This document shows, piece after piece, positions 27,808-59,022 of a stretch of DNA of 64,000 nt. How positions within the stretch are numbered: the stretch's first letter is position 1; each line of letters begins with the position of its first letter. Position numbers and translations under genes: made by a program. The notes under the pieces were generated by a model. It was not told the DNA's origin, made no database searches, and saw nothing but the letters and a program-made list of their open reading frames with translations. Location of the stretch: NCBI GenBank assembly GCA_030377895.1, contig JAUCGB010000008.1, positions 1 to 64,000 on the forward strand, in the 5' to 3' direction. The DNA comes from Anaerolineales bacterium HSG24. Its GTDB lineage: Bacteria > Chloroflexota > Anaerolineae > 4572-78 > J111.

Positions 27808-27898
27808 GGTAGTCCTGCACAAGTAGTGATGGCAGAATCCGGAGTGCTTGCCTGCAAAGCGAGCTTTGCACTTCTTATCACTACCTTTGCATTACTAC
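27808..27898 (+). repeat. R2 element (91 bp)
   Basis: GGTAGTCCTGCACAAGTAGT ... CCTTTGCATTACTAC. It directly abuts an R3 element. Confidence 0.9.
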
Positions 27899-27998
27899 AG
27901 TCTTTCAGATAATGGTTTTCAATTCAAGACCAACCTTCCCGCAAGTTCTAAACTTGCGGGAAGGTAACGGCTGAAAATGTTTATCTGAACATCTATAC
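27899..27998 (+). repeat. R3 element (100 bp)
   Basis: AGTCTTTCAGATAATGG ... ATGTTTATCTGAACATCTAT with the central hairpin CTTCCCGCAAGTT / AACTTGCGGGAAG. Same element at 44101-44199 and, inverted, 56970-57066. Confidence 0.9.
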
Positions 27999-44022: not shown

Positions 44023-44100
44023 TGGAGGGTCGGTTTCTAGCCGACATGTTGACTGGAAGCCAACTCTCCGTTTGGGCCAACACATACAACACCCACCTAC

Positions 44101-44199
44101 AGTCTTTCAGATAATGGTTTTCAATTCAAGACCAACCTTCCCGCAAGTTTAGAACTTGCGGGAAGGTGACGGCTGAAAATGTTTATCTGAACATCTATA
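44101..44199 (+). repeat. R3 element (99 bp)
   Basis: AGTCTTTCAGATAATGG ... GTTTATCTGAACATCTAT with the hairpin CTTCCCGCAAGTT / AACTTGCGGGAAG. No gene is seen in the rest of 43963-44440. Confidence 0.9.
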
Positions 44200-44440: not shown

Positions 44441-47044
44441 ATGCTCAATCTTACTGGTCGAATGCTCGGCCCATATCAACTTATGGAACTGACTGGACAA
44501 GGTCGTTTAGCCACAGTTTATCAAGCCTATCAACCCGGCCTCAATCGGCGTTATGTGGCCTTAAAATGGTTTTCGCCACAATTTGAAAAAACGTTAGGGT
44601 TTGGCACGAATCTACATCAAAAGCTAGGACTGCTGATGACGGTCAACCAGCCTCATGTTGTGCCTTTGCTCGATTTTGGACAGGATGCGGGCTATACCTA
44701 TCTGGTCCAACCGTGGCAGACTGGGCCGACGTTGGCAACGTTGCTAACCGAGCAACCGTGGTCGGTTGAAGAACTCGACCTACTGTTGAGCCAACTTGGC
44801 CCAGCATTGAGCCATGTCCATTCCTTGGGACTGGTTCATGGCGACATCCAACCTCGTAATATTTTTGTGACCGAAGAGGCTGATACACCCCATTATCTGC
44901 TGGCCGATTTTGCCATCTCCACCTTGTTGACCGACGCGGGTCAGCAAGCCAGCGCAATCTCACCCGAACAACAGGCCGGACAATCGGCGGACATTCAGAG
45001 CGACATCTACGCTTTGGGGGTGTTGCTCTATCGACTGGCAACAGGTAAATCGTTGGAGGTAACGAGCCAGACTGTGGCACTCCCTAGTCAACACAACCCA
45101 GCCTTATCGCCCGATTTGGAACTGATTATTTTGACCGCACTGGCTTGGTCGCCAAAAAATCGGTATAGCACAATGGACGAGATGATTCAAGCATGGCAAC
45201 AGGCAGTCAGTGCTTTGTCGTATCAAGTTCCGAATATATCCTTACAAAAGCCATTATCAGTCCCGTCAGTCCCCAATCAGGCCCCAAAGTTGCCTCAACA
45301 ACGCCCTCTTTCTGCCTCTTTTCCCTCAGTCAAACAGAAGGCGAGCGGGGCGGGCAGTTCTATCGTCGTGCCTCGTGGCTCGTTTATCGGCCCGTTATTG
45401 ATTGCAGGCGGATTAGCTTTGGTTGCTTGTTTGATGGTCTTTCTGATTACGGCTGGCCTATGGGGCGGGGCTACTGCTTCACCGACCGCGACATTAGTTG
45501 CGGTACAGGTTAATGAGGCTGTACAACCCAATTCGACGGACACACCGACTTCGATACCAATGGACACACCGACTTCGATACCGACGGACACACCCATCGT
45601 CAAACCAACCGAGAGAGAGAATCGATCTGATCAAAAAACTCTCTTAGAATCGGACAAAAAAATCGCACCGCAAAAAGAAAGTAACTTGCCAGATTCGGAT
45701 ACGCCGACTCCGACCCGAACATCCTCTCCAACGCCAAGTCCTATACCAACCGAAGCAGTTGCCTTGAACGCCCCAAATTTGCCAGCCACCAATAATGGCC
45801 TGGCCTGCATCGGCTCGTTTGGCTTTGGAGTCAGTTGTTTGAACGAGTACGGTTGGCAGAGCTATCGTGAAACCAACTCTCCCTTAGATGGCAATTTAAT
45901 CAGCGATATTGCCATCTGTCCTGATGGTCGAATCTTGATGATGCACAGTTCTGGAATCAGTAGTTTTGACGGGCAGAACTGGCAAGAGCATGCTCCCGAT
46001 ATCATAGCTAGTTTTGATGCGGTGGCATGTGATGATCGGGGCGGCATTTGGCTCGCTTATTTTGGCGGAGTGAGTTATTTTAACGGTCAAGATTGGACAA
46101 ATTATCCGATGGAGGTATTGACCAACGATCCTACGAAAAAACTGTTAGAGACTGTCGAAGTCGCGCCCAATGGTGAGGTGTGGGTCTTAACCTCTCGGAC
46201 GGTGGCTCGTTTTGATGGGCAAACATGGACGGTTTATGATCAAAACAATGGTTTTCAAGAGGAATATTTCGTAAAAGGATTAGCTATTGGGCCAAACAGT
46301 CAACCGTGGATTGTAGCTAATAAAAAACTGTTAACCTATAAAAATGGCAAATGGTTGGTTTACGAGGGCCCGAGCTGGTTTGTCTCCGAATCTATGCTTG
46401 TTGATGACGAGGGAAATGTATGGATTGGCATGTTTAGTGATGGATTATATCGCTTTACCGACGGGCAATGGTTTTCCTACACCATTGAAAATAGCCCTCT
46501 CTCGACCAATCAAGTTAAATCATTAGCCAAGGATGACCGCGGTCGAATCTGGATTGGCACCGATTGGGGTTTGCAGGTGCTAGATGGTGAAATATGGCAG
46601 AACTACTTTATGTACAACGCAGATATGGTCGATAATGAGATTAACGCCTTAGCCGTTTCGGGGGCTGGGCCACAGATGCCTCCGCCACAAGAGAAACCGA
46701 CTGGCTCGTTGACCGGACGCATCTTGCGCTTGGAGGAAAAAACCCCGATTGCCTCTGCCCCGGTTGAACTCTGTGTTCGTCGAATCTCCAGTAGTTTTGA
46801 TGGCCCAACGCCTTGCGCCGAGCAACCGTTCGTGCATAAAACTCAAACCAACGCGGACGGCTATTTTACCATTTCTGATTTACCTCCCGGCCATTACCGA
46901 GTTGTGGTACAGGTTCCCGGTGAAAAATGGTATATGTTAACCAAAAAAGAGGATGGGTATTCCTTTTCCTCCGACGAACGATTGACGATACAGGCGGGAG
47001 AGGAAACTCGTTTGGAGCGGTTGTTTATTACCGATTTGGAGTGA
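44441..47044 (+). CDS. Ser/Thr kinase-like receptor with extracytoplasmic propeller
   Basis: 867 residues. N-terminal kinase fold (about 10-265): YVALKWFSPQ keeps the Lys, but the catalytic loop is HGDIQPRN instead of HRDIKPxN and DFG is DFA, so activity is doubtful. One membrane segment near 316-343 (FIGPLLIAGGLALVACLMVF), Thr/Pro-rich stalk with repeated DTPTSIP, then a beta-propeller (about 445-735) with two-component-type units (GGIWLAYFGGVSYFNGQDW, GNVWIGMFSDGLYRFTDGQW, GRIWIGTDWGLQVLDGEIW) and a C-terminal carboxypeptidase-regulatory-like domain (TNADGYFTISDLPPGHYRVV). It may transmit an outside signal to the cytoplasm as a pseudokinase. GAGGA is 8 bases upstream. A small membrane protein gene follows after 7 bases. 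Confidence 0.85.
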   Translation: MLNLTGRMLGPYQLMELTGQGRLATVYQAYQPGLNRRYVALKWFSPQFEKTLGFGTNLHQKLGLLMTVNQPHVVPLLDFGQDAGYTYLVQPWQTGPTLATLLTEQPWSVEELDLLLSQLGPALSHVHSLGLVHGDIQPRNIFVTEEADTPHYLLADFAISTLLTDAGQQASAISPEQQAGQSADIQSDIYALGVLLYRLATGKSLEVTSQTVALPSQHNPALSPDLELIILTALAWSPKNRYSTMDEMIQAWQQAVSALSYQVPNISLQKPLSVPSVPNQAPKLPQQRPLSASFPSVKQKASGAGSSIVVPRGSFIGPLLIAGGLALVACLMVFLITAGLWGGATASPTATLVAVQVNEAVQPNSTDTPTSIPMDTPTSIPTDTPIVKPTERENRSDQKTLLESDKKIAPQKESNLPDSDTPTPTRTSSPTPSPIPTEAVALNAPNLPATNNGLACIGSFGFGVSCLNEYGWQSYRETNSPLDGNLISDIAICPDGRILMMHSSGISSFDGQNWQEHAPDIIASFDAVACDDRGGIWLAYFGGVSYFNGQDWTNYPMEVLTNDPTKKLLETVEVAPNGEVWVLTSRTVARFDGQTWTVYDQNNGFQEEYFVKGLAIGPNSQPWIVANKKLLTYKNGKWLVYEGPSWFVSESMLVDDEGNVWIGMFSDGLYRFTDGQWFSYTIENSPLSTNQVKSLAKDDRGRIWIGTDWGLQVLDGEIWQNYFMYNADMVDNEINALAVSGAGPQMPPPQEKPTGSLTGRILRLEEKTPIASAPVELCVRRISSSFDGPTPCAEQPFVHKTQTNADGYFTISDLPPGHYRVVVQVPGEKWYMLTKKEDGYSFSSDERLTIQAGEETRLERLFITDLE

Positions 47045-47051
47045 TAACGAT

Positions 47052-47495
47052 ATGATTGACGAATTTTATGATGATGATTACGATTATGAAGAAGATTTCT
47101 TTGATGAAAGGCAATTCTCATATCGTCCCTCGCCATTAGTGATATTAATCTTACTGTTGCTAATTCTAGCTATGTTACTTCCGTTTTTAAATCCGATGGT
47201 ATCGACATGGATATATCACCAATCTCCCACGCCCACCCCAGAGCCATCATTTTGGGAGGAAAAGGAGGTTGCTAAGGCAATTAACTTAAGGAGCGACAAC
47301 TCGCTCCGTCATGTCATGCTGAGTCAAAGGCGAAGCATCCACTCGAATATCCGTTTTGAAATTCCGAGTAAAAGACTCGGTAGTGCAAAGCTCGCTTTGC
47401 CTGCAAGGCAAGCCTTGCACTCCGGATTCTGCCATCACTACATGTCTCGGCTGACGTTGATAGTTGGTTGCGAAGATAGAAATTCCCCTGTATAA
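47052..47495 (+). CDS. Small acidic membrane protein with repeat-derived C-terminus
   Basis: 147 residues as read. A very acidic N-terminus (MIDEFYDDDYDYEEDFFDE) and one strong membrane segment (PLVILILLLLILAMLLPFL, residues 28-46), then a Pro/Thr stalk (SPTPTPEPSFWEEKE). From about residue 80 on the frame runs through repeat DNA: a 44-base unit also found at 17118-17162, and an R2 copy that encodes SAKLALPARQALHSGFCHH. The original C-terminus has therefore been replaced. It follows the receptor gene by 7 bases and probably is its partner. No family recognised. Confidence 0.55.
   Translation: MIDEFYDDDYDYEEDFFDERQFSYRPSPLVILILLLLILAMLLPFLNPMVSTWIYHQSPTPTPEPSFWEEKEVAKAINLRSDNSLRHVMLSQRRSIHSNIRFEIPSKRLGSAKLALPARQALHSGFCHHYMSRLTLIVGCEDRNSPV
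47379..47445 (-). repeat. R2 fragment inside the small membrane protein gene
   Basis: GGTAGTGCAAAGCTCGCTTT ... CACTCCGGATTCTGCCATCA in reverse orientation, translated as the tail of the 47052 protein. Confidence 0.85.
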
Positions 47496-47531
47496 TTCAG
47501 GGATTAATCTACCAAAGGAGTTTTTATCTTG

Positions 47532-48215
47532 ATGCAACAGATATTATATGACACCTGCCCTAGTTGTCGGCAAGGGGCAGTGAGTTTGCATGACACCCTT
47601 TATCAATGTGCTGATTGTGGGCTGACTTTGAGAAAAAGCAAGCGATTTATCTTCCTAAATGCCGGCAAGTACGAAGTGGTCAAGCTAGGGACGGGTAGTT
47701 TTGGCATGGACGAACAGGCTATGCAGGGTAAAATCTTTACGCCAGAACTACTAAAAATCACCCTCAATAACGCCTACAGTGACGAACAGCTAGACCAACT
47801 GGCCTCCGGTGATCAATCCATCCTACGCCCAGTGACCACAGTGTTGGCCGTAATTATATTAGAACAATTACAGGAAAAATGCTTTGTTGAGGTACGGGGT
47901 GTCCGACGAGGACATGGCCCAGTCCTCGTCGGCGAACATGGTTATCAGCCCATCGTTGAAATACCGACCAAAGAACTTACATGGCAGGATAAGGGCAATT
48001 TGTTTTGTAGCTCCAACCGACTGGTCATGCCAAGCGATAAATTCACCTTTATCCGCTTGGGCCGAAAAGTATCTGTGGTGCGGGCCTTTCGTAATGGAAT
48101 CGCGATTCAACTCAAAAAAGAAGATTTCGCCACCTACTTTGTCGGCGGTTTGCCGCATGAGTCCGCGGTCATGGCTGCCTATATCATCGGAAAGTTACCC
48201 AAATCCAAAAAATAA
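47532..48215 (+). CDS. Zinc-ribbon protein of unknown function
   Basis: 227 residues. An N-terminal zinc ribbon (CPSC ... CADC, residues 9-12 and 27-30) is followed by about 190 residues that I do not recognise, with a beta-rich middle (FVEVRGVRRGHGPVLVGEHG) and the segment VVRAFRNGIAIQLKKEDF. No membrane segment. AAAGGAG lies 11 bases before this ATG and 8 before the adjacent TTG at 47529, which is an equally good start. It stands alone. Confidence 0.7.
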   Translation: MQQILYDTCPSCRQGAVSLHDTLYQCADCGLTLRKSKRFIFLNAGKYEVVKLGTGSFGMDEQAMQGKIFTPELLKITLNNAYSDEQLDQLASGDQSILRPVTTVLAVIILEQLQEKCFVEVRGVRRGHGPVLVGEHGYQPIVEIPTKELTWQDKGNLFCSSNRLVMPSDKFTFIRLGRKVSVVRAFRNGIAIQLKKEDFATYFVGGLPHESAVMAAYIIGKLPKSKK

Positions 48216-48266
48216 GGATTTGTAGCAGGTAGCGTTACCTCTTAAATACAAACCCGAAGGGGTGGA

Positions 48267-48349
48267 TATGACCGCCGATCAAAAAACTCGCGAATTATCA
48301 GCTTTGAGCCAGAGATGATTCATTCGCGTTAACTGGATTAGCGGTCATA
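48267..48349. repeat. R5 element (83 bp, complete)
   Basis: Terminal inverted repeats TATGACCGC ... GCGGTCATA with inner arms CGCGAATTAT / ATTCGCGTTAAC. The second copy at 59211-59662 is split by two nested elements. Confidence 0.85.
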
Positions 48350-48353
48350 TTTT

Positions 48354-48405
48354 GGTAGTGTTGCCATGTTGACTGATACCTATCAGTCAATAGGTCAGCA
48401 CTACC
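48354..48405. repeat. R2-ended short palindrome
   Basis: GGTAGTGTTG ... CAGCACTACC with a different core (GACTGATACCTATCAGTC). R2-like tips on an unrelated interior. Confidence 0.5.
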
Positions 48406-48444
48406 CATATTTTACGCCACCTTGTTCGGTTTGATTATTATTCT

Positions 48445-49182
48445 TTACTTTAGCCCTGAAACCACCCGTTCAGTCAACACCTGCGCCATCTCCTTCCGAT
48501 ATTCAGTCGAACCCCGAAAATCGGCTGGTGGATTGAGAGTGGACAACGCCTCTTGGCTGACCAGAATCGGCGTGTCGGCCACGCCACACAAAGCGATATG
48601 TTGCGTCTCCGATTCTAGGCGAACCAACGCGGCCACAATCGGCGTGTCGGCGGGAGTGCGGGCCACTCGCTCTGAGGCGGTCTCGCCATGCGTGGGAAAG
48701 GTGACGCTTGTCAGCAGTCGCCCTTTCAACGCCGAGTCGGAATCGGCCAGAAAATCGGTCAAAGGTATGCTCTGCCCTCCATCCGCCCCCTCAAGGATGA
48801 TTGTCGCCTCAAAGACCAGCAAAGCGGCCAACAGTTCGCTCTCCCAATCCCCACCGACGATGACTCCGCCGATAGTCGCCATGTTTCGCATGGTGTTCGG
48901 CCCCTCTCGATGTGCCATCTCCTGCACCAAGGGTGGCATGTCAGCCTGATCGACCAAACTCTGTAGCCGAGTCATAGCTCCAATCGTGACCTGCCCGTTG
49001 TTGCGATCAATCGAATCCAGCCCCACATCTTGTAAATCAACCAACTCCTCAACCTCAGGCGGCATATTGGGGGTTAAATATGTACCTCCGGCAATCAGGG
49101 CGGTGTTGATGCCAGAGCGGTTTAGCAGGCTCAATGCCTCAGCGATAGATTCTGGACGGTGACTATTTTTTATTTGTGACAT
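48445..49182 (-). CDS. FAD-binding subunit of a molybdenum hydroxylase (CoxM/XdhB-like), orphan
   Basis: 245 residues. FAD-binding motifs of the CoxM family are present: LIAGGTYLTPNM near 30 (AGGT type) and NMATIGGVIVGGDWESELLA near 103 (the second FAD motif TIGG), followed by the CO-dehydrogenase flavoprotein C-terminal domain. The start at 49182 has GAGGAG 9 bases upstream and beats the in-frame ATG at 49197. The usual partners, a molybdopterin large subunit and a 2Fe-2S small subunit, are not in the window: upstream there is only a short frame and then an IscB element. It may be the remnant of a broken operon. Confidence 0.85.
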   Translation of the reverse strand: MSQIKNSHRPESIAEALSLLNRSGINTALIAGGTYLTPNMPPEVEELVDLQDVGLDSIDRNNGQVTIGAMTRLQSLVDQADMPPLVQEMAHREGPNTMRNMATIGGVIVGGDWESELLAALLVFEATIILEGADGGQSIPLTDFLADSDSALKGRLLTSVTFPTHGETASERVARTPADTPIVAALVRLESETQHIALCGVADTPILVSQEALSTLNPPADFRGSTEYRKEMAQVLTERVVSGLK

Positions 49183-49186
49183 AATA

Positions 49187-49354
49187 TTACTCCTCATGTA
49201 AAGTAAACAGTATCAATTGATCTGTTTCTATATCTAAAGCCACACTTAATTGGACTACTTGAGCTTCATTTACCGTCACCATGCCGGTGGTGGCTCTACC
49301 CGGCATACTGATGGTGTTGCGACAAGTCGCTTGAAACATAGTTTGGTTTATCAT
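49187..49354 (-). CDS. Short frame coupled to the CoxM-like gene, possible 3' remnant
   Basis: 55 codons from an ATG at 49354. Its stop TAA lies inside the Shine-Dalgarno region of the CoxM-like gene, 4 bases before that ATG, as in a coupled operon. The protein (TISMPGRATTGMVTVNEAQV ... ILFTLHEE) matches no family I know. The frame also stays open a little further into the iscB 3' end, so it may be the tail of a gene truncated when the IscB element inserted. Confidence 0.4.
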   Translation of the reverse strand: MINQTMFQATCRNTISMPGRATTGMVTVNEAQVVQLSVALDIETDQLILFTLHEE

Positions 49355-49355
49355 T

Positions 49356-50576
49356 TTATACTGTTTTGTTCCATACAACCGTTTGACCACGTTGTAATAA
49401 CTGACAGTCTTTAGGTCTTATTGATGCAGGCTCACCCTTCACTCGCCTAAAGGCCAATCTACCAGCAGTATAAATTGAGTTAATTTGTTTGACCCATTTG
49501 TCCTTAACTCTGACAATATCGCCCTTTCGGAAACCCTCTAGTTCTGTGTTGACCTGATAACGAACTCGTCCTTGCCCTTTGCGAGATAGGTCATAATATT
49601 GCCGTCTGGTTTGTCTCGGTCTAAATCGTATGGAGTAAAAATTGTCACGATGGTAAGGGACTGGTTGGTCAGCATCTAGTGTTGCGATGCACATCCCATC
49701 GACATCATGGGTTTTGGGCAAATCAAGGTGCTTTCGATAGGCCGATGTTTGATAACCAAAAACGGTTGTTACCTTGCCCAACGACTCGTACAAGTAGCTT
49801 TTCCCTTGCATTGTTCGTTGGGCTATTTTGTCTTGAAACCCGCTTACGCCACTAGTATTAAGCGTGATTTTGTTCTGATGTACCTTCTTGTGGCATTTAT
49901 CGCAAAGGGTTATCAGGTTTTTGATGGTGTCTTTCCCACCGTTTCGCCGGTAGACAATGTGGTGAGCCTCTAATTGGCAATCACCCTTCCCGCAATGTTG
50001 GCAACTGAACCCGTCACGTATCAATGTTGCTAGTCTCAGGTTCTCGTCAAGCCGGTTAGATTGCTGATATTCTCTTCCCGTCAGTTCTGGATTGTTCAAT
50101 CTGGCAATGTCAACCTGCACATCCTCAATGATTATCTGACTGATGGGCAAGGAGATTTTGTTTACCATCCGAATGACCTCATCAGCATTAGCCTTGACCG
50201 AGGGAGGTATACGCCCACTTCGCTTGCTTGATGAGCGATTTTTAAACCGCTTGGGTCTGTACCATTTTCGATTCCGCCTATTGCGACGATTCTCACGTCT
50301 ACCATCCATCTTCTTCTTAATGTCAGTTCTGTGGTTAATCTCCCCTGACATTATGATTTGACCATTACCTACACAACTGAATCCGGTTGTATGACTACCT
50401 TTATCAATTCCAATGGTCACATCTTGTACATTTTCTTCACAGTCCCACGTTAGTTGGATTGTGAACGGGTCTCGATTGATTACTGTGGCCTTCCCGTCTC
50501 TGAGTAGCTTTCTTGCCTTTGCTGGCTTGCATGGCATTAACGGGTTGCCATTTTTGTTGATTACATAAACTAACAT
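49356..50576 (-). CDS. iscB: IscB RNA-guided nuclease (IS200/IS605-associated)
   Basis: 406 residues with the whole IscB plan: PLMP domain (NGNPLMPCKPAKARKLLRDG, PLMP at 12-15), RuvC-I (TIGIDKGSHTTGFS, D58), arginine-rich bridge helix (about 92-112, RRENRRNRRNRKWYRPKR), RuvC-II (IIIEDVQ, E151), HNH domain with two CxxC zinc pairs (CQHC 192-195, CDKC 225-228), H205-H206, N220 and H229, then RuvC-III (THDVDG, H290-D291 and D293) and a C-terminal PI-like domain. All catalytic residues are intact. IscB proteins cut DNA guided by an omega-RNA encoded upstream; the leader region here is consistent. No tnpA is present, so the element is non-autonomous. AGGAGG lies 13 bases before the ATG. Confidence 0.93.
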   Translation of the reverse strand: MLVYVINKNGNPLMPCKPAKARKLLRDGKATVINRDPFTIQLTWDCEENVQDVTIGIDKGSHTTGFSCVGNGQIIMSGEINHRTDIKKKMDGRRENRRNRRNRKWYRPKRFKNRSSSKRSGRIPPSVKANADEVIRMVNKISLPISQIIIEDVQVDIARLNNPELTGREYQQSNRLDENLRLATLIRDGFSCQHCGKGDCQLEAHHIVYRRNGGKDTIKNLITLCDKCHKKVHQNKITLNTSGVSGFQDKIAQRTMQGKSYLYESLGKVTTVFGYQTSAYRKHLDLPKTHDVDGMCIATLDADQPVPYHRDNFYSIRFRPRQTRRQYYDLSRKGQGRVRYQVNTELEGFRKGDIVRVKDKWVKQINSIYTAGRLAFRRVKGEPASIRPKDCQLLQRGQTVVWNKTV

Positions 50577-50582
50577 AATGTC

Positions 50583-50830
50583 TTTATGACCTCCTGTTAG
50601 GAGAGTGATATACTCCTCGCGATTGTTAAATGGGCTTTTTATGCCTAGTACACTTTCACGTTTCCGCTACCCTTAATACTAGACCACAGAGCTACCGACT
50701 GGAATAACATCTGTAGGTGTGATGACCTATCTAACTGCTACTATCTTTGATAGTCCGCTGTCAATCCCGTGTCTATCGAATAAAACGCTATAGATTTAGG
50801 AACTGTAGCTATATTCTCCTGATGATAGGG
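50583..50830 (-). ncRNA. HEARO/omega-RNA candidate upstream of iscB
   Basis: The 250 bases before iscB have no gene but dense pairing when read on the minus strand. Visible helices: CTATC-aaa-GATAG (50741-50753), AGGT...ACCT around 50720-50733, CTAGTA ... TACTAG enclosing a CG-GAAA-CG tetraloop (about 50650-50690), GGC-ataaaa-GCC, and AGGAG ... CTCCT just before the iscB ribosome-binding site. Position, length and structure match HEARO RNA, the omega-RNA of IscB. The 5' end, which would hold the guide, is not fixed; it should lie near 50830-50870. Confidence 0.7.
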
Positions 50831-50874
50831 ACAACGGTTGCTCACTGTTTGGGGCAATTGGAACGGCATTGTTG

Positions 50875-51816
50875 TTAATAGTCATAAAGCAATGTCTCAG
50901 CCGTAAAGTTGACCACCGTCAGCCCTTTGGCAATCGTTATTGTCTCATCCGTTGAGAACAATTCCCCCGTCACTGGCAGGAAACTAGGCGCGCCATCGAG
51001 TGCGGGTAGGATTTCGGCGGTCAGGTAGCTCTGGGCGGTCAAATCCTCCGTAATGACCTGAACGGTTGCTGGGGGTAAGGGTTCAAAATCATCACCCACA
51101 TCATATTCAATCGGGTCACGCTGAATCGCAATATTTAGTCCGATAATTTGACCGTTTCCTAGCTCGATCTCGCCATTAGTCGCGCCTTTGGGTATGGATA
51201 CCGAATATCGATATAACCCCGGCGACAGGTCGAGTTGCAACCGTCCGGGAATGGTATCGGTTTGGGGCGGAACATTATAAACCTGTCCATTGAGATCGAG
51301 GGTTAATTCATCATTGCCCCAATAGTTCACCCATACCAAACTTGCCTGTCCCATTGTTGGAAGATTCGGTTGCCATGTATCAACAATTGGTAAAGGCTCT
51401 GTTGGTGTAGCAAATGGATCAGCCTCAAACAGATAAACATAATCTTTCGGTTTCTCAATTAAAATACCATTTTCCGTTTTCGGAGCCGTCTTCTCGATAC
51501 GCGCTCCCTTGATAAAACGGTTACTACCATCTAAGGTAAACTCTCCTCCATTGCCAATCGGCACACCGGGGATATGCACCGTGTAACGATATTCTCCGAG
51601 AGGCAAATCTAATGTTAAGATTCCGCCATCGGGCATGGCATCCGTGCCTTGAATGACGTACTCTTGGTCGTTCAAGGTGAGGTACATGGAATGACCGATA
51701 TAGTTAATGAAATAGAAATTGTCGCCACTCCCCGCGTAACCAGAGGGCGGGAGTATTATCATCAAAATTGAGATAATAACAATATAACGACTGAAAATTA
51801 AGGTTTTTTTGAACAT
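50875..51816 (-). CDS. Secreted protein with two homologous beta domains
   Basis: 313 residues. The start at 51816 has GGAGGAA 7 bases before it. A signal peptide (FSRYIVIISILMIILPPSGY then AGSG) is followed by two similar units, about 25-110 and 145-225: FINYIGHSMYLTLNDQEYVI ... LPLGEYRYTVHIPG and VWVNYWGNDELTLDLNGQVY ... LSPGLYRYSVSIPKG. Each looks like a small beta-sandwich with a PEGA-like ending. The last 80 residues are unlike them. No known family; probably an extracytoplasmic binding or structural protein. Confidence 0.75.
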   Translation of the reverse strand: MFKKTLIFSRYIVIISILMIILPPSGYAGSGDNFYFINYIGHSMYLTLNDQEYVIQGTDAMPDGGILTLDLPLGEYRYTVHIPGVPIGNGGEFTLDGSNRFIKGARIEKTAPKTENGILIEKPKDYVYLFEADPFATPTEPLPIVDTWQPNLPTMGQASLVWVNYWGNDELTLDLNGQVYNVPPQTDTIPGRLQLDLSPGLYRYSVSIPKGATNGEIELGNGQIIGLNIAIQRDPIEYDVGDDFEPLPPATVQVITEDLTAQSYLTAEILPALDGAPSFLPVTGELFSTDETITIAKGLTVVNFTAETLLYDY

Positions 51817-51880
51817 GATAAGTTCCTCCATTTTGGATTGTCTACGGTAAAATCACGCCTTCTGTAACTGAAACTAATGA

Positions 51881-51979
51881 TAGTGGTGCAGAAGTAGTGA
51901 TCCGGAGTGCAAGGCTTGCCTTGCATGCAAAGCAAGCTTTGCACTCCGGAATTTCCTTCACTACTTGTGCAGGACTACC
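51881..51979 (+). repeat. R2 element (99 bp)
   Basis: TAGTGGTGCAGAAGTAGTGA ... ACTTGTGCAGGACTACC with the core GGAGTGCAAGGCTTGC / GCAAGCTTTGCACTCC. Confidence 0.9.
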
Positions 51980-52000
51980 AAACTAATTTGCTGAAAAACA

Positions 52001-52867
52001 TTAAATGCCAAGTAACCAATTTGGGTCAACGGTAATCTGTTCAACCTGAACAATTTTTGTTTTTACCCCCAAACCTAACTCTTTCAATTTGTCTATCAAC
52101 TGGTCGCCATCTATCAAATCTATTGCTGGCGCGCCGTCTCTGGTTGCCTCGCGTATTGCATCTTTGGTGAAATTGCCAGTTGTGATGAGCAATCCCTTAT
52201 CCGCTCGCCCAACCATTGCTCCTCTAAAATCTCTCACTTGGCTGACATTTACAGAGCCTTTATACCGTTTGCATTGAAAAATGACATGAAAACTGAGTAA
52301 TCCACCTAAACGCATAATACCTTTGCCATCAATGCCACCGTCTCCGCTTTGTCCCGTAACTTCAACTTGAATGAAACCCGACTCACGCAGTAATCGTTGG
52401 ACAAGCCGTTCAAAGGCAGACGGGTGCATTTTTAGTAGAGTTGCTAATAGTTCATCACGCCAAGTGGCCTCTACATCTGGCTCATCCGTTACTTCGCTAA
52501 CGTTCACCTCTTTCGCTTGTTTCAACTTATCCTGAACATGCCGCCTGACCGTTTTTCCATTGACTTTATCAGTTTTTCTGACTTTTAGTGTTAATGCCCA
52601 TACCCCTCGGCTGGAGTTTTCAAGGATACCATACTTTTTGAGGTAAGTTCTTGCCCAAGCAAGTCTATACTCCACTTCAGTTTGTGAGCCTTTTTCGGAA
52701 TCGTGGAGAATTTCAAGTTGTTCATTCGGCAAGTTTGCGATTTCAGAGGCTTTATTATCAATTTCTTCAATTGTACCGGACCCGCCAAGCATTTTGAGTG
52801 CCTGAATAACTGGGGTCATAAGCATTTCAAATGTGGGAAGAGTTACGTTTGTCAATTTTAATCTCAC
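52001..52867 (-). CDS. Mrr-family restriction endonuclease
   Basis: 288 residues from a GTG start. N-terminal winged-helix domain (about 10-95: MLMTPVIQALKMLGGSGTIE ... YRLAWARTYLKKYGILENSS) as in Mrr_N, and a C-terminal PD-(D/E)xK nuclease (about 140-265) with DGGIDGKGIM, the catalytic FQCKRYKG (Q-x-K) and ITTGNFTKDAIREATRDGAP. Mrr enzymes usually cleave DNA carrying foreign methylation. It is the last gene of a four-gene defence operon, 95 bases after the methylase stop. Its role next to a methylase may be to attack DNA with other modification patterns, which is inference. Confidence 0.92.
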   Translation of the reverse strand: MRLKLTNVTLPTFEMLMTPVIQALKMLGGSGTIEEIDNKASEIANLPNEQLEILHDSEKGSQTEVEYRLAWARTYLKKYGILENSSRGVWALTLKVRKTDKVNGKTVRRHVQDKLKQAKEVNVSEVTDEPDVEATWRDELLATLLKMHPSAFERLVQRLLRESGFIQVEVTGQSGDGGIDGKGIMRLGGLLSFHVIFQCKRYKGSVNVSQVRDFRGAMVGRADKGLLITTGNFTKDAIREATRDGAPAIDLIDGDQLIDKLKELGLGVKTKIVQVEQITVDPNWLLGI

Positions 52868-52962
52868 GAGGGGATTTTACCACTTAATGACGAGTAATAT
52901 ACGATATTTATGTAAAATACGCAAGTTTTCAAGGTTGAAACGTTTAATCTTACGGAAATGGC

Positions 52963-54978
52963 CTACCTATCCATATTCCTTATAATTTCAACTTGCCTTG
53001 TAGACAATCTACAAATTTTCATGATTAGCTTATCAAGCTCGGTTTCTACATGATGACCATTAAGAGCTTGATTAACAAGTTGAATTATAGCATGTTGGGC
53101 CGAATTAGACATCAAAGGTAACGGCAACATCTCTAAATCGCCACGTAAGACCTTGTGAGTGTTAAATTTTTTCCGAAAAACAAACTGGTACAGCCTCGAA
53201 TTGAGCAACCCCAGTATCAGTTTAAGGGGGTAGTTCTCGATTTGGGGGATGAGAATATTTGCGCTATTCAAGGTCAACGATTGCTGATTATCATAAGCAA
53301 AAACAAGCCGATTGGAGATAAAGCGGTAAATCAATTTCTCTTTGGCTCGATATTTGGCTTCGGGTGCGACCTGTTGAAACCGTTCTGGCCTGTATCTAAT
53401 GAAGGTACTCGGCTGTTTTAAGCGATAGGCATCCACATCCCGGCCCCGATAAATCGGCTCTAGGCCATCGTGCCATGTATCATCCAGATATTTCTGATTG
53501 TCGCCGGTCACAATCCCCAAAGCCCAATTAGACGTGCCTTGCAGAGTGACATGGGGTAAAGCGTACAACTGCTCAATGATTTGGTTTTCTTCGTCGGTTA
53601 GATAAACATCAAAAATACAATAAGGATTGCTAACAAATCGTGCCTGCGGAACATGGTACGTGCGCCCCTCAGTGGTTTTGATTTCAACTCGCCAATCATC
53701 AGTCACACATTTTAACAAATCCAGTCGAATGACCGGTGTGAACACCCCCTTGAATTTTCGGCCAAAACAGGTAATTTTTTCGATAGTAGCCAGATGCAGA
53801 ATATGGCTTCGAATATCGACATGAGCGCGGATATTTAGGATTGATTCCGGCAAAACAAAGGAGATATACCCTCCTTCGCTGACTAGTTCCAAACTTTTGG
53901 CTAAGAAGTATGAAAACGACTCACCCGAATCGAGCATGGGATACAAACGCTTAAACCGCTTAATCTCATCCTTTTGATAGGACGCGCCCCACGGCGGATT
54001 GGTGGCAATCAGGTCAAAGCGGTGTTGAATTTGATGGGGCTTGTCCGGTGACGAGGCATGATAATCTACATCTCGCAAACTGTCGGCCTGATAAATGTTG
54101 GGGCTAAATTCATCATCTCGATAAAACAACAGTAAATTTAAGCGAGCAATTCTGACTGCAAGCGGGTCGAGGTCGAAGCCATATAAGGCTGATGGATCAT
54201 GATAACCGACTTGGGCGGCACAAAGTAGGAACTGTCCGGTTCCACAACATGGGTCAAGAAAAAGGCCATGCTTGTTTTGATGATCATTCAATATCCCTTC
54301 AATTAACGTTTTAGGAGTGTAATACGACCCTTTTCGCGCCTTATTTCCGACCGACATTAAGGATTGATAGATAATGCCAATTGTGTCAGCATGGGAAACA
54401 TCGGTCAACAGGTCAAACAGTCCCCAATAGACATGGTTATCTCGTCGTCCAGATTGATTATCGTTCGTAGTACCTAACTCGACACGCCATGCCTCAATCT
54501 CAGCCTTGACACAATCTCGTCGCCAATCCGAAAATATACGATAATCAAATGGGCTTGGTTTTAATTCGGCAAAGCAAGCTTTGCACTCCTGTACCGAACT
54601 ACTCAACTGCACTTCACCACTCAGGACAAGTTGTTTGAGGCTCAAGACAAATATCGCTACCGCCAAATCAAGAGACTTGTCCGAGAAATAGGCCCGTATT
54701 CGTTCAATCTCATCAACAAAGGAGTTATCAATTAGGTACTCATCAGGAATAAAACTATTATTAGCCTTCTTCTTATTAGCTCGTTTTCTGAGCCGGTCTA
54801 TCTCCCCACGCTCTATCCGATTCTGTAATTCGATGACTGCATCATGATAAAATTTGGCTTTACTGTTCGTAGCCACGGACAGATAACCATGTTTAACCCA
54901 GTTCCGCACCGTCGCATCCGACACGTCGAGCAAGGCTGCGGTTTGTTGGAGCGAGATGAGATGTCCGTTACTGTCCAC
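52963..54978 (-). CDS. N6-adenine DNA methyltransferase with MerR-like HTH and TaqI-C-type region
   Basis: 671 residues. N-terminal helix-turn-helix (SLQQTAALLDVSDATVRNWV, residues 8-28) of excisionase/MerR type; a helical linker; then the N6 methylase: KGSYYTPKTLIEGIL near 220, SAM motif I FLDPCCGTGQFLLCAAQ near 240, motif IV LIATNPPWGASYQKDEI near 328; and a C-terminal target-recognition region like TaqI_C (YRGRDVDAYRLKQPSTFIRY ... GLLNSRLYQFVFRKKFNTHK). No nuclease motif in the chain, so modification only or a type IIG relative without nuclease. Overlaps the HNH gene upstream by 11 bases. Bases 54571-54592 are an R2-like piece, translated as part of SSVQECKACFAE. Confidence 0.9.
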   Translation of the reverse strand: MDSNGHLISLQQTAALLDVSDATVRNWVKHGYLSVATNSKAKFYHDAVIELQNRIERGEIDRLRKRANKKKANNSFIPDEYLIDNSFVDEIERIRAYFSDKSLDLAVAIFVLSLKQLVLSGEVQLSSSVQECKACFAELKPSPFDYRIFSDWRRDCVKAEIEAWRVELGTTNDNQSGRRDNHVYWGLFDLLTDVSHADTIGIIYQSLMSVGNKARKGSYYTPKTLIEGILNDHQNKHGLFLDPCCGTGQFLLCAAQVGYHDPSALYGFDLDPLAVRIARLNLLLFYRDDEFSPNIYQADSLRDVDYHASSPDKPHQIQHRFDLIATNPPWGASYQKDEIKRFKRLYPMLDSGESFSYFLAKSLELVSEGGYISFVLPESILNIRAHVDIRSHILHLATIEKITCFGRKFKGVFTPVIRLDLLKCVTDDWRVEIKTTEGRTYHVPQARFVSNPYCIFDVYLTDEENQIIEQLYALPHVTLQGTSNWALGIVTGDNQKYLDDTWHDGLEPIYRGRDVDAYRLKQPSTFIRYRPERFQQVAPEAKYRAKEKLIYRFISNRLVFAYDNQQSLTLNSANILIPQIENYPLKLILGLLNSRLYQFVFRKKFNTHKVLRGDLEMLPLPLMSNSAQHAIIQLVNQALNGHHVETELDKLIMKICRLSTRQVEIIRNMDR
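54571..54592 (+). repeat. R2 core fragment inside the methylase gene
   Basis: GGCAAAGCAAGCTTTGCACT plus CC matches the R2 core over 22 bases and keeps the methylase frame open. Confidence 0.6.
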
Positions 54979-55564
54979 GCAACAACCCTTGGCGTTCTAA
55001 TTCATGGGCGATAAACGGTGCTCGTTTCCTTACATAAGAAAAAGACATCTCACCGATACGATATTCATAAACCCAAGCCTCTCGTTCAGCGACCAGATCA
55101 TCATCCTCGTTGAGTTTTAGGCAGGCTATCGTGTCAGCAACAGCTTGTTTTTGCTCAGGTAATAGGTCGGGATTTGGCTTGATGTATAGGGAAGTAAAAT
55201 CAAGAATAAACCAGTTTGGGGCCAGAGTAAACGGGTCTAAAATCGAGCGAGTACCTTTACGGCTGTTGAAGCGTGTTGCCACATATCGAAAATTAGACCA
55301 CTCATAAGCCAACTGAGGAGCTTGTACCTTGGGGACAAAATGGTCTACCGAATGATTGCCCGTACTGTGCGGTATCCAATGGGCAGAATAGGCACAAATA
55401 CCTTTGTAGCCTCGCCTCATCTCAGGCAATACCCGTCGCCAATAATCTTTTCCTTTCCATTGATTGGATGTTGGGGCAGGGGTTTCGGTCAAAAATCGGT
55501 TTCCCGGTGTTCTGACTCGTTTGTTAAATTCTTCGGGTTCTGGTTGAGGTTGCACCGAGATCAT
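54968..55564 (-). CDS. HNH endonuclease, PtuB-like (Septu-type)
   Basis: 198 residues. The HNH core is about 55-105: GICAYSAHWIPHSTGNHSVD with HF after it (D74, H75), WSNFRYVATRFN (N91, N100) and SRKGTRSILDPF, the pattern of PtuB and retron/TIGR02646-type HNH proteins. The ATG at 55564 overlaps the ATPase stop by 4 bases (ATGA), so the two are translationally coupled as in Septu. The longer frame upstream is inside the ATPase gene. It should nick or cut nucleic acid on infection when licensed by the ATPase. Only one of the CxxC-type Cys seen in many relatives is obvious. Confidence 0.82.
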   Translation of the reverse strand: MISVQPQPEPEEFNKRVRTPGNRFLTETPAPTSNQWKGKDYWRRVLPEMRRGYKGICAYSAHWIPHSTGNHSVDHFVPKVQAPQLAYEWSNFRYVATRFNSRKGTRSILDPFTLAPNWFILDFTSLYIKPNPDLLPEQKQAVADTIACLKLNEDDDLVAEREAWVYEYRIGEMSFSYVRKRAPFIAHELERQGLLRGQ

Positions 55565-56889
55565 AATTCGACTCCATGTTGTTCCGCAAAATAGGTCCAG
55601 CGAGGCCAAAACCGATCGCCATGCGTGGGTAGGTATTTCATGAGACGTTCAGAAAGTTCCCGCACCTCTTCGGTGGTCACATCGTCACGGGCTTGAAGTT
55701 TTTTGGCATCTTCAATTGCCTGCTCCGCTTCTTCCGAACGAGGCTGATCAAGCTCAAACAATTCAGACCGAAGCCAAGAATCGGCGGTACCACGAATTGA
55801 AAACTCGATTTCATGTAACTCAACTCTGCTTCCAAAAAGATCATGTTTGACCAAATCTAAATGAAACACCTTATCTTTCTGATAATCAAATAGTGGTTCG
55901 ATGGAAGCCATGACCAACGGTGAATGAGTCGCCACGAGAAGTTGAAGGCTCAGTTCTGAGGCCAAATCTTTCGACACCTCCAACAAAGTCGGCACAATGC
56001 GACGTTGCCATTTCGGGTGCAGATGCGCCTCAATCTCATCGACCAAAATCACCGTGCGTTTTTGGGGGGCTTTACGAATCTGTTTAGACTGCTCTTGATG
56101 CTCTGTCCAAGCCCAGACAATTAAATAGGCCAAAGCCACAATTCGCCGCACCCCCGCCGAGGCATAGACAAGCGGAATGTCGCCATAAGAATGTTTAATC
56201 GTGGGCATCCAACGACTATCACCGGGTACACGAGTCGGCTTGCCCGGCTCTAAGTGACCCAAATCACCATGCTCTAAACCGGGTGGAGAAAGGCGTTTGA
56301 GGACTCGCTTGAGTGTCTCAAAGGTCTCTTTTTCCGGGCTGTTTTGCCAGAAAATCCAGTCATTAATCAATCCATTCGAAATATAGGTTGTTTTGCCGTC
56401 AACCTGATTTTGAATCCCCTGCCAAAGCTCTTCTCTGGAGAAGGTCAAGGATTTAGTCTTACGATTTATCCCATTATCTCTGGCGGAATCCCAAACCGCA
56501 AACGCACCATCGACGCGGGCATAGATCAATAAACTCGGTATGTTTGGGCGTTCGTTTGGCAAAACCCATTGTTGGCGATCCCAATCATAGCTCGCCTGAC
56601 CCTGCTTGATTTGGCCCGCCGCGTCAAGAATCTCAAAGCCGATGCTTGGCTCATCCCGTTTGGCATCCTCTCTCGGATATGCTTGAAATCCGGGCCATTC
56701 TCCGCTTAAAGCCCAATAGACACACTCCAATAAAAAACTCTTGCCCAGTCCATTATCGCCGGTGAAGAGATTGATTCGGGCGGCCAGATTCAGGTGTAGG
56801 TTTCGAGTTGGGCCTACTCCGGTTATGGTTAGGGCGGATAGGATAGTAGTTTTGCAAGGGGAAACAGTTAGATTAAAATTTTCAGTCAT
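55561..56889 (-). CDS. AAA/ABC-type ATPase, PtuA-like (Septu-type)
   Basis: 442 residues. Walker A GDNGLGKS at 44-51 after ITGVGPTRNLHLNLAARINL; ABC-signature-like region PLVYASAGVRRIVALAYLIV near 250; Walker B VILVDEIEAHLHPKWQRRIV near 280; the H-switch ATHSPLVMAS near 320; and a C-terminal helical tail. The layout is the AAA_15/AAA_23 group of defence ATPases, without a TOPRIM domain. It heads the operon ATPase-HNH-methylase-Mrr. No ribosome-binding site is obvious. PtuA with PtuB normally forms a complex that kills phage; assignment rests on gene pairing and motifs. Confidence 0.85.
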   Translation of the reverse strand: MTENFNLTVSPCKTTILSALTITGVGPTRNLHLNLAARINLFTGDNGLGKSFLLECVYWALSGEWPGFQAYPREDAKRDEPSIGFEILDAAGQIKQGQASYDWDRQQWVLPNERPNIPSLLIYARVDGAFAVWDSARDNGINRKTKSLTFSREELWQGIQNQVDGKTTYISNGLINDWIFWQNSPEKETFETLKRVLKRLSPPGLEHGDLGHLEPGKPTRVPGDSRWMPTIKHSYGDIPLVYASAGVRRIVALAYLIVWAWTEHQEQSKQIRKAPQKRTVILVDEIEAHLHPKWQRRIVPTLLEVSKDLASELSLQLLVATHSPLVMASIEPLFDYQKDKVFHLDLVKHDLFGSRVELHEIEFSIRGTADSWLRSELFELDQPRSEEAEQAIEDAKKLQARDDVTTEEVRELSERLMKYLPTHGDRFWPRWTYFAEQHGVEL

Positions 56890-56969
56890 TAGAAAAATCC
56901 AACTTTACGATGAAATGTAATTCAAGAAAAAAGGTAGCCGCAATCATAATGTCTTTGAGTATCCTGCAA

Positions 56970-57066
56970 TAGATGTTCAGATAAATATTTTCAGCCGTTA
57001 CCTTCCCGCAAGTTTAGAACTTGCGGGAAGGTTGGTCTTGAATTGAAAACCATTATCTGAAAGACT
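56970..57066 (-). repeat. R3 element (97 bp)
   Basis: Inverted copy of the 27899 and 44101 elements: TAGATGTTCAGATAAATATT ... AACCATTATCTGAAAGACT with the CCCGCAAGTT hairpin. It lies at the 3' end of the truncated frame 57089-57298. Confidence 0.9.
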
Positions 57067-57088
57067 GAATATACCTTGTTGTTGGGAA

Positions 57089-57298
57089 CTATATTTCTCT
57101 TTTGTCGAATTCACGATCAATGGAGTGTCTTTTTGGGAATATTTCACTTATAAAATCACACAATATCCGCTCTCTGTGATTACCTGTTAATCCACTATGG
57201 TCACTTAATGCTTGTTCCGAAAGAGCAAGAAGTTCCTTCGCCTTAGATTGAAAATATTGACGTATTTTCTGTTGAATGTTCATTTGTTTTTCACTCAC
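57089..57298 (-). pseudogene. Truncated N-terminus of a DUF6602-like protein
   Basis: 69 codons (an ATG lies at 57283). The sequence LSDHSGLTGNHRERILCDFI then SEIFPKRHSIDREF resembles the N-terminus of DUF6602 proteins, which continue into a PD-(D/E)xK-like nuclease fold and are common in defence regions. Everything after this start is missing: the frame stops 23 bases before an R3 element, and no continuation is found beyond it. It is next to the ATPase-HNH operon, so it may be a decayed defence gene. A short intact gene cannot be excluded. Confidence 0.4.
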
Positions 57299-57373
57299 GA
57301 TGACTTATTCACACTGGCTTCAGCTAACTATACCATAAACGATTCAAACTCACCAAAATCACCCCGTCTCCCT

Positions 57374-57402
57374 TTGCTTAGCCTGAACAAGTTGACTATA
57401 AT
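57374..57402 (+). promoter_or_regulatory. Probable promoter of the aldehyde dehydrogenase gene
   Basis: TTGCTT at 57374-57379, a 17-base spacer and a perfect TATAAT at 57397-57402, 100 bases before the ATG. Confidence 0.5.
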
Positions 57403-57501
57403 GGTCAGCATCAACGTACCTCTCATAAAAACAATACTCTATATTTAAACAATCTAAACAATCTGTCAAAATTAACCAATATGCAAGGAGGCATATTATC
57501 T

Positions 57502-59022
57502 ATGAAAACCATTTTAGAAAAACTTAACTTGACCGAAACCAACCCCGGAGCCTGTACTGGGCCGGATGGTTGGATAACTGACCCGAACGGTAGTCGCTTA
57601 GTCTCGTACAACCCGACCACCGGGCAGCCGATTGCCAGCGTGATTCAGGCTACCGGCGCAACCTACGAGCAGGTGATTACGGCATCTCAAAACTCGTTTG
57701 AGACTTGGCGCACGGTTCCTGCGCCTAAACGGGGCTTGCTGATTCGAGATTTGGGCAACGCCCTGCGAGAAGTGATTGAGCCGTTGGGTGAGTTGGTCAC
57801 GCTGGAGATGGGCAAAATTCGAGCCGAGGGTATCGGCGAGGTGCAGGAGATGATTGATGTATGCGACTTTGCTGTGGGACTGTCCCGACAGTTGTACGGC
57901 CTGAGCATGCACTCCGAGCGGCCCGGCCATCGCATGTATGAGCAGTGGCATCCACTAGGGCCGATGGGCATCATCACCGCCTTTAATTTTCCGGTAGCGG
58001 TCTGGGCTTGGAATGTCGCCCTAGCCGCAGTCTGTGGTGATACGATGGTCTGGAAACCATCGTCTAGTACGCCGTTGACGGCTGTTGCAATACAACATAT
58101 TACCAACAATATCATGGCTGATCATGGGCTGAGTGGCATCTTTAATCTGTTAATCGGTAGAGGCAGGGAGATTGGTGAACGACTCCTCAACGACCCGTTG
58201 TTGCCCCTGATTAGCTTTACCGGCTCGGTTAGCACCGGACGGCATGTGTCTCAAACCGTGGCCGGACGGTTGGCAAGAACAATTTTGGAGTTGGGTGGCA
58301 ATAACGGCATTATCGTAACCGAAGACGCTAATCTTGAGTTGGCGATGCGCGGCATCGTCTTTGGCGCGGTTGGCACAGCCGGACAGCGCTGTACCAGTAC
58401 CCGCCGCATCATCATGCAAAAACAGATTGCAGCTGAATTGACCGAGAAACTGGTCAAAGCCTATCAACAAGTGCCAGTTGGCGACCCGTTAGCCGAGGGT
58501 ACACTGATGGGGCCGTTAATCAACGAAGCCGCGGTGGAGACGATGATGACGGCCCTCGAAACCGCCAAAGCCGAGGGGGGCGAGGTGCTGACTGGCGGCA
58601 ACCGTCTGCCTGATAAAGGGGCAAACTTTGTCGAGCCGACCATTATCAAAATGCCGAGCCAGACTCCGTTAGTCTGTGAGGAGACCTTTGCTCCGATTCT
58701 TTATCTGATGGAATATGAGACATTGGATGAGGCGATTGCCATGCATAATGCCGTCCCACAAGGGTTGTCGAGTGCGATTTTCACCACCAACCTACTCCAA
58801 GCAGAGCAGTATTTGTCTGCCACAGGCTCCGATTGTGGGCTTGCCAACGTCAACATTGGCACGAGTGGAGCCGAGATTGGCGGGGCATTTGGGGGCGAAA
58901 AGGAAACCGGCGGCGGACGAGAATCCGGCTCGGATGCCTGGAGAGGCTACATGCGCCGTCAGACCAACACCATCAACTGGTCAACCGATTTGCCGTTGGC
59001 GCAGGGGATTGAGTTTGGGTAG
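57502..59022 (+). CDS. ALDH7-family dehydrogenase (aminoadipate-semialdehyde type, AmaB-like)
   Basis: 506 residues. The start at 57502 is set by AAGGAGG 11 bases upstream, which lies inside a longer open frame beginning at 57481. NAD-dependent aldehyde dehydrogenase: FNFPVAVWAWNVALA, the NAD loop FTGSVSTGRHVSQ, catalytic Glu in LELGGNNGII near 262 and catalytic Cys in GQRCTSTRR near 296. The C-terminal EIGGAFGGEKETGGGRESGS plus DAWRGYMRRQTNTINW is diagnostic of ALDH7/AmaB enzymes that oxidise alpha-aminoadipate semialdehyde in lysine degradation. A related ALDH7 role in aldehyde detoxification is possible. Single gene. Confidence 0.93.
   Translation: MKTILEKLNLTETNPGACTGPDGWITDPNGSRLVSYNPTTGQPIASVIQATGATYEQVITASQNSFETWRTVPAPKRGLLIRDLGNALREVIEPLGELVTLEMGKIRAEGIGEVQEMIDVCDFAVGLSRQLYGLSMHSERPGHRMYEQWHPLGPMGIITAFNFPVAVWAWNVALAAVCGDTMVWKPSSSTPLTAVAIQHITNNIMADHGLSGIFNLLIGRGREIGERLLNDPLLPLISFTGSVSTGRHVSQTVAGRLARTILELGGNNGIIVTEDANLELAMRGIVFGAVGTAGQRCTSTRRIIMQKQIAAELTEKLVKAYQQVPVGDPLAEGTLMGPLINEAAVETMMTALETAKAEGGEVLTGGNRLPDKGANFVEPTIIKMPSQTPLVCEETFAPILYLMEYETLDEAIAMHNAVPQGLSSAIFTTNLLQAEQYLSATGSDCGLANVNIGTSGAEIGGAFGGEKETGGGRESGSDAWRGYMRRQTNTINWSTDLPLAQGIEFG

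Follow-up and report, generated by a model that had tools for sequence, protein, structure and literature searches.

Four defense genes on one strand of the window (by which we mean the whole 64,000-nt stretch of Anaerolineales bacterium HSG24 DNA that was analyzed), the first three overlapping one another in turn, raise the question of whether they specify a single anti-phage system or are independent neighbors. The initial annotation had proposed the former: a Septu-like ATPase and HNH nuclease, an N6-adenine methylase and an Mrr nuclease acting together, with methylation as the mark that identifies self to either nuclease, or else a new hybrid of Septu and restriction. The explanation that we favor, and consider likely, is that the region is a small defense cluster built from three independent modules: a ptuAB pair that is the truncated remnant of a system composed of a TSPPY-type methylase, a long PtuA and PtuB; an orphan methylase; and a lone mrr gene.

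Gene content of the locus

The four genes, their order, the single strand and the overlaps were confirmed from the ORF coordinates (Table 1). The ptuA/ptuB overlap is 4 nt (ATGA) and the ptuB/methylase overlap 11 nt (GTGGACAGTAA), while the methylase and mrr genes do not overlap and are separated by an AT-rich spacer of 95 nt. Promoter-like sites (11 across the region versus 10.6 in shuffled DNA) and terminator-like sites (5 versus 5.5) were no more abundant than expected from shuffled DNA and thus give no guide to operon structure. Pfam and PADLOC family matches were strong in all four genes, with the exception of the helix-turn-helix (HTH) part of the methylase, and catalytic motifs are intact in all four products. 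These included the following: Walker A GDNGLGKS (residue 44) and Walker B ILVDEIEAH (residue 281) in PtuA; VDHF, WSNF and FNSRK in PtuB; DPCCGTGQ and NPPW in the methylase; and GDGGIDG and QCK in Mrr.

Table 1. Positions of the genes and of the two ptuA junctions in the window
Feature	Position	Strand	Evidence
ptuA, Septu ABC-type AAA ATPase, 442 aa	55561..56889	minus	PADLOC PDLC00270 E 3.5e-165, PDLC00307 1.1e-147
ptuB, Septu HNH nuclease, 198 aa	54968..55564	minus	PADLOC PDLC00348 E 2.2e-68
HTH, N6-adenine methylase and TaqI_C specificity domain, 671 aa	52963..54978	minus	N6_Mtase 3.4e-23, TaqI_C 3.5e-26, weak HTH_17 5e-4
mrr, Mrr_N and Mrr_cat, Type IV-like restriction nuclease	52001..52867	minus	Pfam Mrr_cat 4.9e-31, Mrr_N 9.7e-18
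End of homology to N-extended PtuA	56841..56889	minus	First ~16 codons and everything upstream unrelated to relatives
Approximate recombination breakpoint inside ptuA, near 56390	56370..56410	minus	Sliding nucleotide identity versus G400

The first two genes are a Septu pair, with a family-level PtuA match that includes both Walker motifs and an adjoining PtuB HNH nuclease. PtuA is short, however, at 442 aa versus 641–650 aa in its nearest relatives, and its match to PDLC00270 covers model positions 212–627 only. In PtuB the H, N and N motif residues are kept and the Cys pairs (CxxC) usual in HNH zinc sites are absent. Alignment of PtuB proteins identified this absence, with the H-N-N motif retained, as a trait of this PtuB subfamily.

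The four genes do not recur together

To classify the genes as one system or several, surveys were made from both ends of the locus. Starting from the methylase, 84,980 species genomes were searched and 80 relative loci obtained; PtuA, PtuB or a window-type Mrr was found by tblastn and phmmer near none of the 80 relatives, contig ends having cut many of these loci (flanks of 3 kb or more upstream and 2 kb or more downstream were available in 49 of 81 loci, counting the 80 and one plasmid). Starting from ptuAB, 17 other loci were read, two of which, from Azotobacter plasmids, are near-duplicates; no HTH methylase or window-type mrr was present in any, and the proposed downstream combination of the two was accordingly absent from all 17. 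On these counts a conserved four-gene system was rejected. The combination was confined to the genome of the window in both surveys, an outcome that had been named beforehand as the first half of what would speak against the proposal.

The separability of the modules is also apparent within the genus. In the sister species G400, contig C17 carries ptuAB (PtuA 85% identical to the window protein where the two align, PtuB 87%), mrr (85% identical) is alone on a separate contig, C115, and the closest relative of the HTH methylase is a different gene (38%) on contig C98. DNA homology between the window and G400 extends from inside ptuA to the stop codon of ptuB and, at mrr, is exactly gene-length, ending at the gene ends. 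In the empty-site comparison, the G400 contig stops 163 nt beyond the aldehyde dehydrogenase orthologue.

That PtuA, PtuB, the HTH methylase and Mrr form one combined system has in its favor the shared strand, the 4-nt and 11-nt overlaps and the integrity of every active-site motif, but with the combination in 0/80 methylase loci and 0/17 ptuAB loci, and the parts lying apart in G400, we regard it as highly improbable. The postulated self mark meets a further difficulty. Mrr-type enzymes attack modified DNA, so the Mrr must tolerate the mark of the neighboring methylase, and that mark is no usual protection against Mrr. The 11 nt shared by ptuB and the methylase gene form a junction that may provide translational coupling but do not in themselves speak for joint function. 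The locus serves as a warning against inferring a joint system from genes that overlap in a single genome, since such evidence is weak.

The methylase and the Mrr nuclease as separate modules

The window methylase matches the PADLOC model MTase_II (PDLC03348; 7.6e-119), and its relatives are normally found alone, among housekeeping genes, or beside a Type II restriction endonuclease (REase) of their own. The latter, REase_II (PDLC03414, ~245 aa), adjoins the methylase in about 23 of the 80 loci, downstream except for one case upstream, and is reduced to a C-terminal remnant in 2 further loci, which indicates that the methylase belongs to a Type II restriction–modification (R-M) family that often loses its REase. 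Neither REase_II nor a remnant of it occurs within the window, which leaves the methylase there without the cognate REase of a Type II R-M system. Mrr was considered for this role and rejected, as no Mrr homologue was identified in any of the 80 loci (phmmer to E = 1). We therefore classify the HTH-N6-TaqI_C gene as an orphan Type II-family adenine methylase without an REase.

Among the relatives, four Peptococcaceae loci adjoin purine genes, and in six Spirochaete loci (L067, L072, L073, L074, L086 and L089) the methylase follows a carbamoyltransferase/dihydroorotase-like pair, with a RadC-like gene close by. This conserved Spirochaete synteny suggests an orphan adenine methylase that has been conserved within the lineage, for which CamA or CcrM may be parallels.

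The product of mrr has the Mrr_N and Mrr_cat domains with the catalytic residues expected of a Type IV Mrr protein, and its homologues in other genomes are either lone genes or lie amid assorted restriction genes. We assign it as a lone Type IV-like nuclease module. In the explanation that we favor, the HTH methylase and Mrr would each act alone.

A proposed methylase-linked form of Septu in the relatives

A different picture emerged for ptuAB. PtuA on contig C17 of G400 is 641 aa long, with ~210 extra N-terminal residues relative to the window protein, and immediately upstream of its gene is that of an N6_N4 methylase of 281 aa bearing a TSPPY motif. The order TSPPY methylase, N-extended ptuA, ptuB was found in four genomes, all Chloroflexota: G400 and three others (G457, G499 and G686) that each belong to a different genus. 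Two viral contigs in IMG/VR (L161 and L162, the former cut at the end of ptuA) also carry the TSPPY methylase with a long ptuA, bringing the loci with this methylase directly upstream of ptuA to six. The gap between the two genes is 0–30 nt, and the four genomic methylases are 65–80% identical to that of G400. This linkage has exceptions, since four long PtuAs (L016–L018 and L201) have no neighboring methylase; at short PtuAs (those of plasmids and of G400 contig C31) no TSPPY methylase was found. The methylase-linked form is rare among the ~800 Chloroflexota genomes searched, a wider survey inside two Chloroflexota orders yielded no more copies, and a search of viral contigs for PtuA by peptide patterns copied exactly from the window protein gave no match. 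A relative of the TSPPY methylase adjoins an XcyI-family REase, a possible sign of a Type II-like target.

The suggestion of a Septu/restriction hybrid thus holds for the ptuAB clade to which the window pair belongs and fails as to the partners, which are another methylase, located upstream, and no Mrr. The clade-level methylase-linked Septu (methylase, PtuA and PtuB) apparently represents an undescribed anti-phage system, no description having been found in the open-access literature, with subscription papers and REBASE outside the scope of that search.

Two unusual arrangements were seen among the ptuAB loci. In Aeromonas caviae KAM479 (L011) a BREX-like locus contains an inserted short ptuAB pair, flanked on one side by an Eco57I-type methylase gene and on the other by a PglZ gene. 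In L019 (G265:C271, 5927–6433) a 168-aa ORF consists of ~40 residues from the start of the PtuA N-terminal domain fused to the C-terminal part of PtuB, which we read as the scar that a deletion left in a long ptuAB locus.

Probable loss of the N-terminal domain in the window and the mosaic ptuA

In a maximum-likelihood tree built from the ATPase region common to long and short PtuAs, the long proteins all belong to a single supported group (99/98). The window PtuA is inside this N-extended group, joined with G400 (100/99) and then with G499 (99/99). Given this nested position of a short protein in the N-extended clade, the loss in the window is secondary. When the N-extension was compared with the window by tblastn, only residues 212–225, the last 14 of the domain, were matched (56841–56800), and positions 56842–56960 had no significant match in the rest of the window or in the compared loci. 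The window has neither of the two features of the methylase-linked form, a TSPPY methylase upstream of ptuA and a ~210-aa N-terminal domain in PtuA. An orthologue of the TSPPY methylase was also not found elsewhere in the genome, a metagenome-assembled genome (MAG) of 75% completeness, so that the cognate methylase may be encoded in the portion not recovered.

The shortened ptuA is a mosaic in comparison with G400. Codons 17 to ~165 have 68% amino acid identity to the G400 protein and the remainder 95%, and sliding nucleotide identity is 0.70–0.74 before the breakpoint and 0.82–0.95 after it. There are 31 window-specific versus 10 G400-specific amino acid changes. Faster evolution of PtuA after loss of the N-terminal domain was considered as a cause and withdrawn, as the changes are mostly confined to codons 37–164, where nucleotide identity also drops, and recombination explains the excess.

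Because of the mosaic, some weight must be given to an assembly artefact, by which two strain variants were joined within ptuA and the true locus retains both the N-extension and the TSPPY methylase. The abrupt change in identity to G400 near 56390, the fragmented state of the MAG (206 contigs) and the presence of a dispersed ~99-bp repeat at 56969–57067 would all fit such a join. However, the loss junction (~56841) and the breakpoint are both outside the repeat, the sequence of 56842–56960 is unique, the shortened ORF is open and starts with ATG, and defense genes commonly undergo such recombination. On balance we judge an artefact unlikely.

Several other elements were noted in the window. 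The ~99-bp repeat has further copies at 27898–27996 and 44100–44198 (95–99% identical), as well as shorter, partial copies at other places in the window and one copy in G400. Just upstream of the short ptuA (57089..57298, minus strand) is a 69-aa remnant that looks like the N-terminal part of a PD-(D/E)xK nuclease of the NucC/DUF6602 type, matched over the first ~60 residues only (PADLOC PD_DExK 2.2e-7, NucC 4.6e-7). At 49356–50576 (minus strand) there is a gene for an IscB RNA-guided endonuclease with RRXRR and HNH domains (NCBIfam guided_IscB 3.1e-88, 296 bits versus a cut-off of 175); no Rfam match for an IscB guide RNA was obtained at the gathering threshold in 47000–59000.

As to whether the remaining pair is in use, dN/dS between the window and G400 is ~0.08 for both ptuA and ptuB. 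This value indicates purifying selection on ptuAB and would fit continued use or recent loss alike. With the putative recognition domain and the TSPPY methylase both lost, the remainder should act, if it is active at all, as a plain two-gene Septu, or else be on its way out. It could alternatively have been rewired to the HTH methylase after losing its own domain and methylase, whose TaqI_C domain would then provide both site specificity and protection, with translational coupling as an aid. Although the ancestor of the window ptuAB had a methylase and the HTH methylase gene now directly follows ptuB with the 11-nt overlap, the arrangement that would reflect such a swap of partners is seen in one genome only, no feature of PtuA or PtuB points to binding of the HTH methylase, and ordinary Septu loci hold short PtuAs without any methylase, all of which make it quite improbable.

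The PtuA N-terminal domain and a model for the ancestral system

The N-terminal domain (~210 aa) had no match in Pfam or among PDB sequences, none in a search of plasmids, and no Foldseek fold match with an AlphaFold model built from four sequences, which was poor (mean pLDDT 55.5). Its profile, however, matched an McrB-like AAA_5 protein in the viral contig L163 (E 2.6e-32), and the N-terminus of the PADLOC PtuA model matched the same stretch (5.7e-22). After one iteration the profile also matched the McrB-like AAA_5 protein of L164, and after a second there was a weak third match, in a Mycobacterium plasmid. Beside these McrB-like proteins there is in each case a methylase of the same family and a partner with a PD-(D/E)xK-like motif; DUF2357 was detected in L164 only, just under its Pfam cut-off. 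The two IMG/VR contigs, L163 and L164, appear to be LlaJI-like systems with a putative recognition domain in common with Septu. In LlaJI itself, the McrB-like subunit R1 alone gives site specificity and the other subunit is thought to cut (PMC1459862), and methylase neighbors were frequent in a census of McrBC systems (PMC11090510).

The occurrence of the N-terminal domain on McrB-like ATPases that also neighbor a methylase of this family, in a LlaJI-like layout, makes a recognition module the simplest inference. On this evidence of gene context and analogy, the domain is a candidate swappable DNA-recognition module that travels with a methylase and drives effectors of either the McrBC or the Septu type. 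The ancestral operon of the window pair probably encoded a TSPPY-type DNA methylase, a PtuA with the ~210-aa domain, and PtuB. The PtuA domain would read a DNA site, the methylase would shield host copies of that site, and an unmethylated site would trigger the PtuA ATPase, upon which PtuB would cut, much as in LlaJI with Septu effectors replacing McrBC. Whether the clade is a true R-M system of this kind, in which the TSPPY methylase guards the site read by the PtuA domain and the domain has been exchanged between PtuA–PtuB and McrB-like/PD-(D/E)xK effectors while the methylase family stayed constant, we consider an evenly balanced question. If it is, the window ptuAB is a natural cut-down version that would show Septu action without the recognition part.

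Comparison with known systems

Published accounts differ on the means by which Septu distinguishes phage from self, one describing sensing of phage SSB with DNA cleavage (PMC12904381) and another cleavage of tRNA (PMC13096335); in one characterized Septu, defense needs both the Walker and the HNH residues (PMC13096335). If confirmed, the possession of a methylase and a detachable recognition domain would tie one branch of Septu to classical restriction and make its trigger directly testable by methylation. Likewise, a recognition module common to Septu and McrB-like ATPases would mean that defense systems trade specificity domains across unrelated effectors.

The Septu types published for PADLOC are ptuAB and RT-ptuAB (PMC8565338). 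The window pair resembles Septu type I in both genes, their domain order, active-site motifs and tight overlap; it differs in belonging to a clade that ancestrally has the PtuA N-terminal domain and an upstream methylase, and in a PtuB that lacks the paired Cys residues typical of HNH zinc sites. As in Septu type II/retron I-A (reverse transcriptase, ptuA and ptuB; PMC8565338), the relatives have a third gene just upstream of ptuAB, but it encodes a methylase rather than a reverse transcriptase, and the window has none. With LlaJI-type R-M (PMC1459862) the relatives share the combination of a methylase, an NTPase subunit with a putative N-terminal recognition domain and a separate nuclease, and the N-extension is common to McrB-like proteins in a LlaJI-like layout. 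Unlike LlaJI, their effectors are an ABC-type ATPase and an HNH nuclease instead of an McrB GTPase and a PD-(D/E)xK nuclease, and site recognition by the N-terminal domain is in their case putative. The other two modules are ordinary: the HTH methylase is of the same family as that of Type II R-M systems (PDLC03348 with PDLC03414) and has no REase_II in the window, and mrr, a lone gene with Mrr_N, Mrr_cat and PD-(D/E)xK residues, is like the Mrr of Type IV restriction. What appears to be new is thus the methylase-linked Septu at the level of the clade, the window locus being probably a rearranged member of that clade beside ordinary modules.
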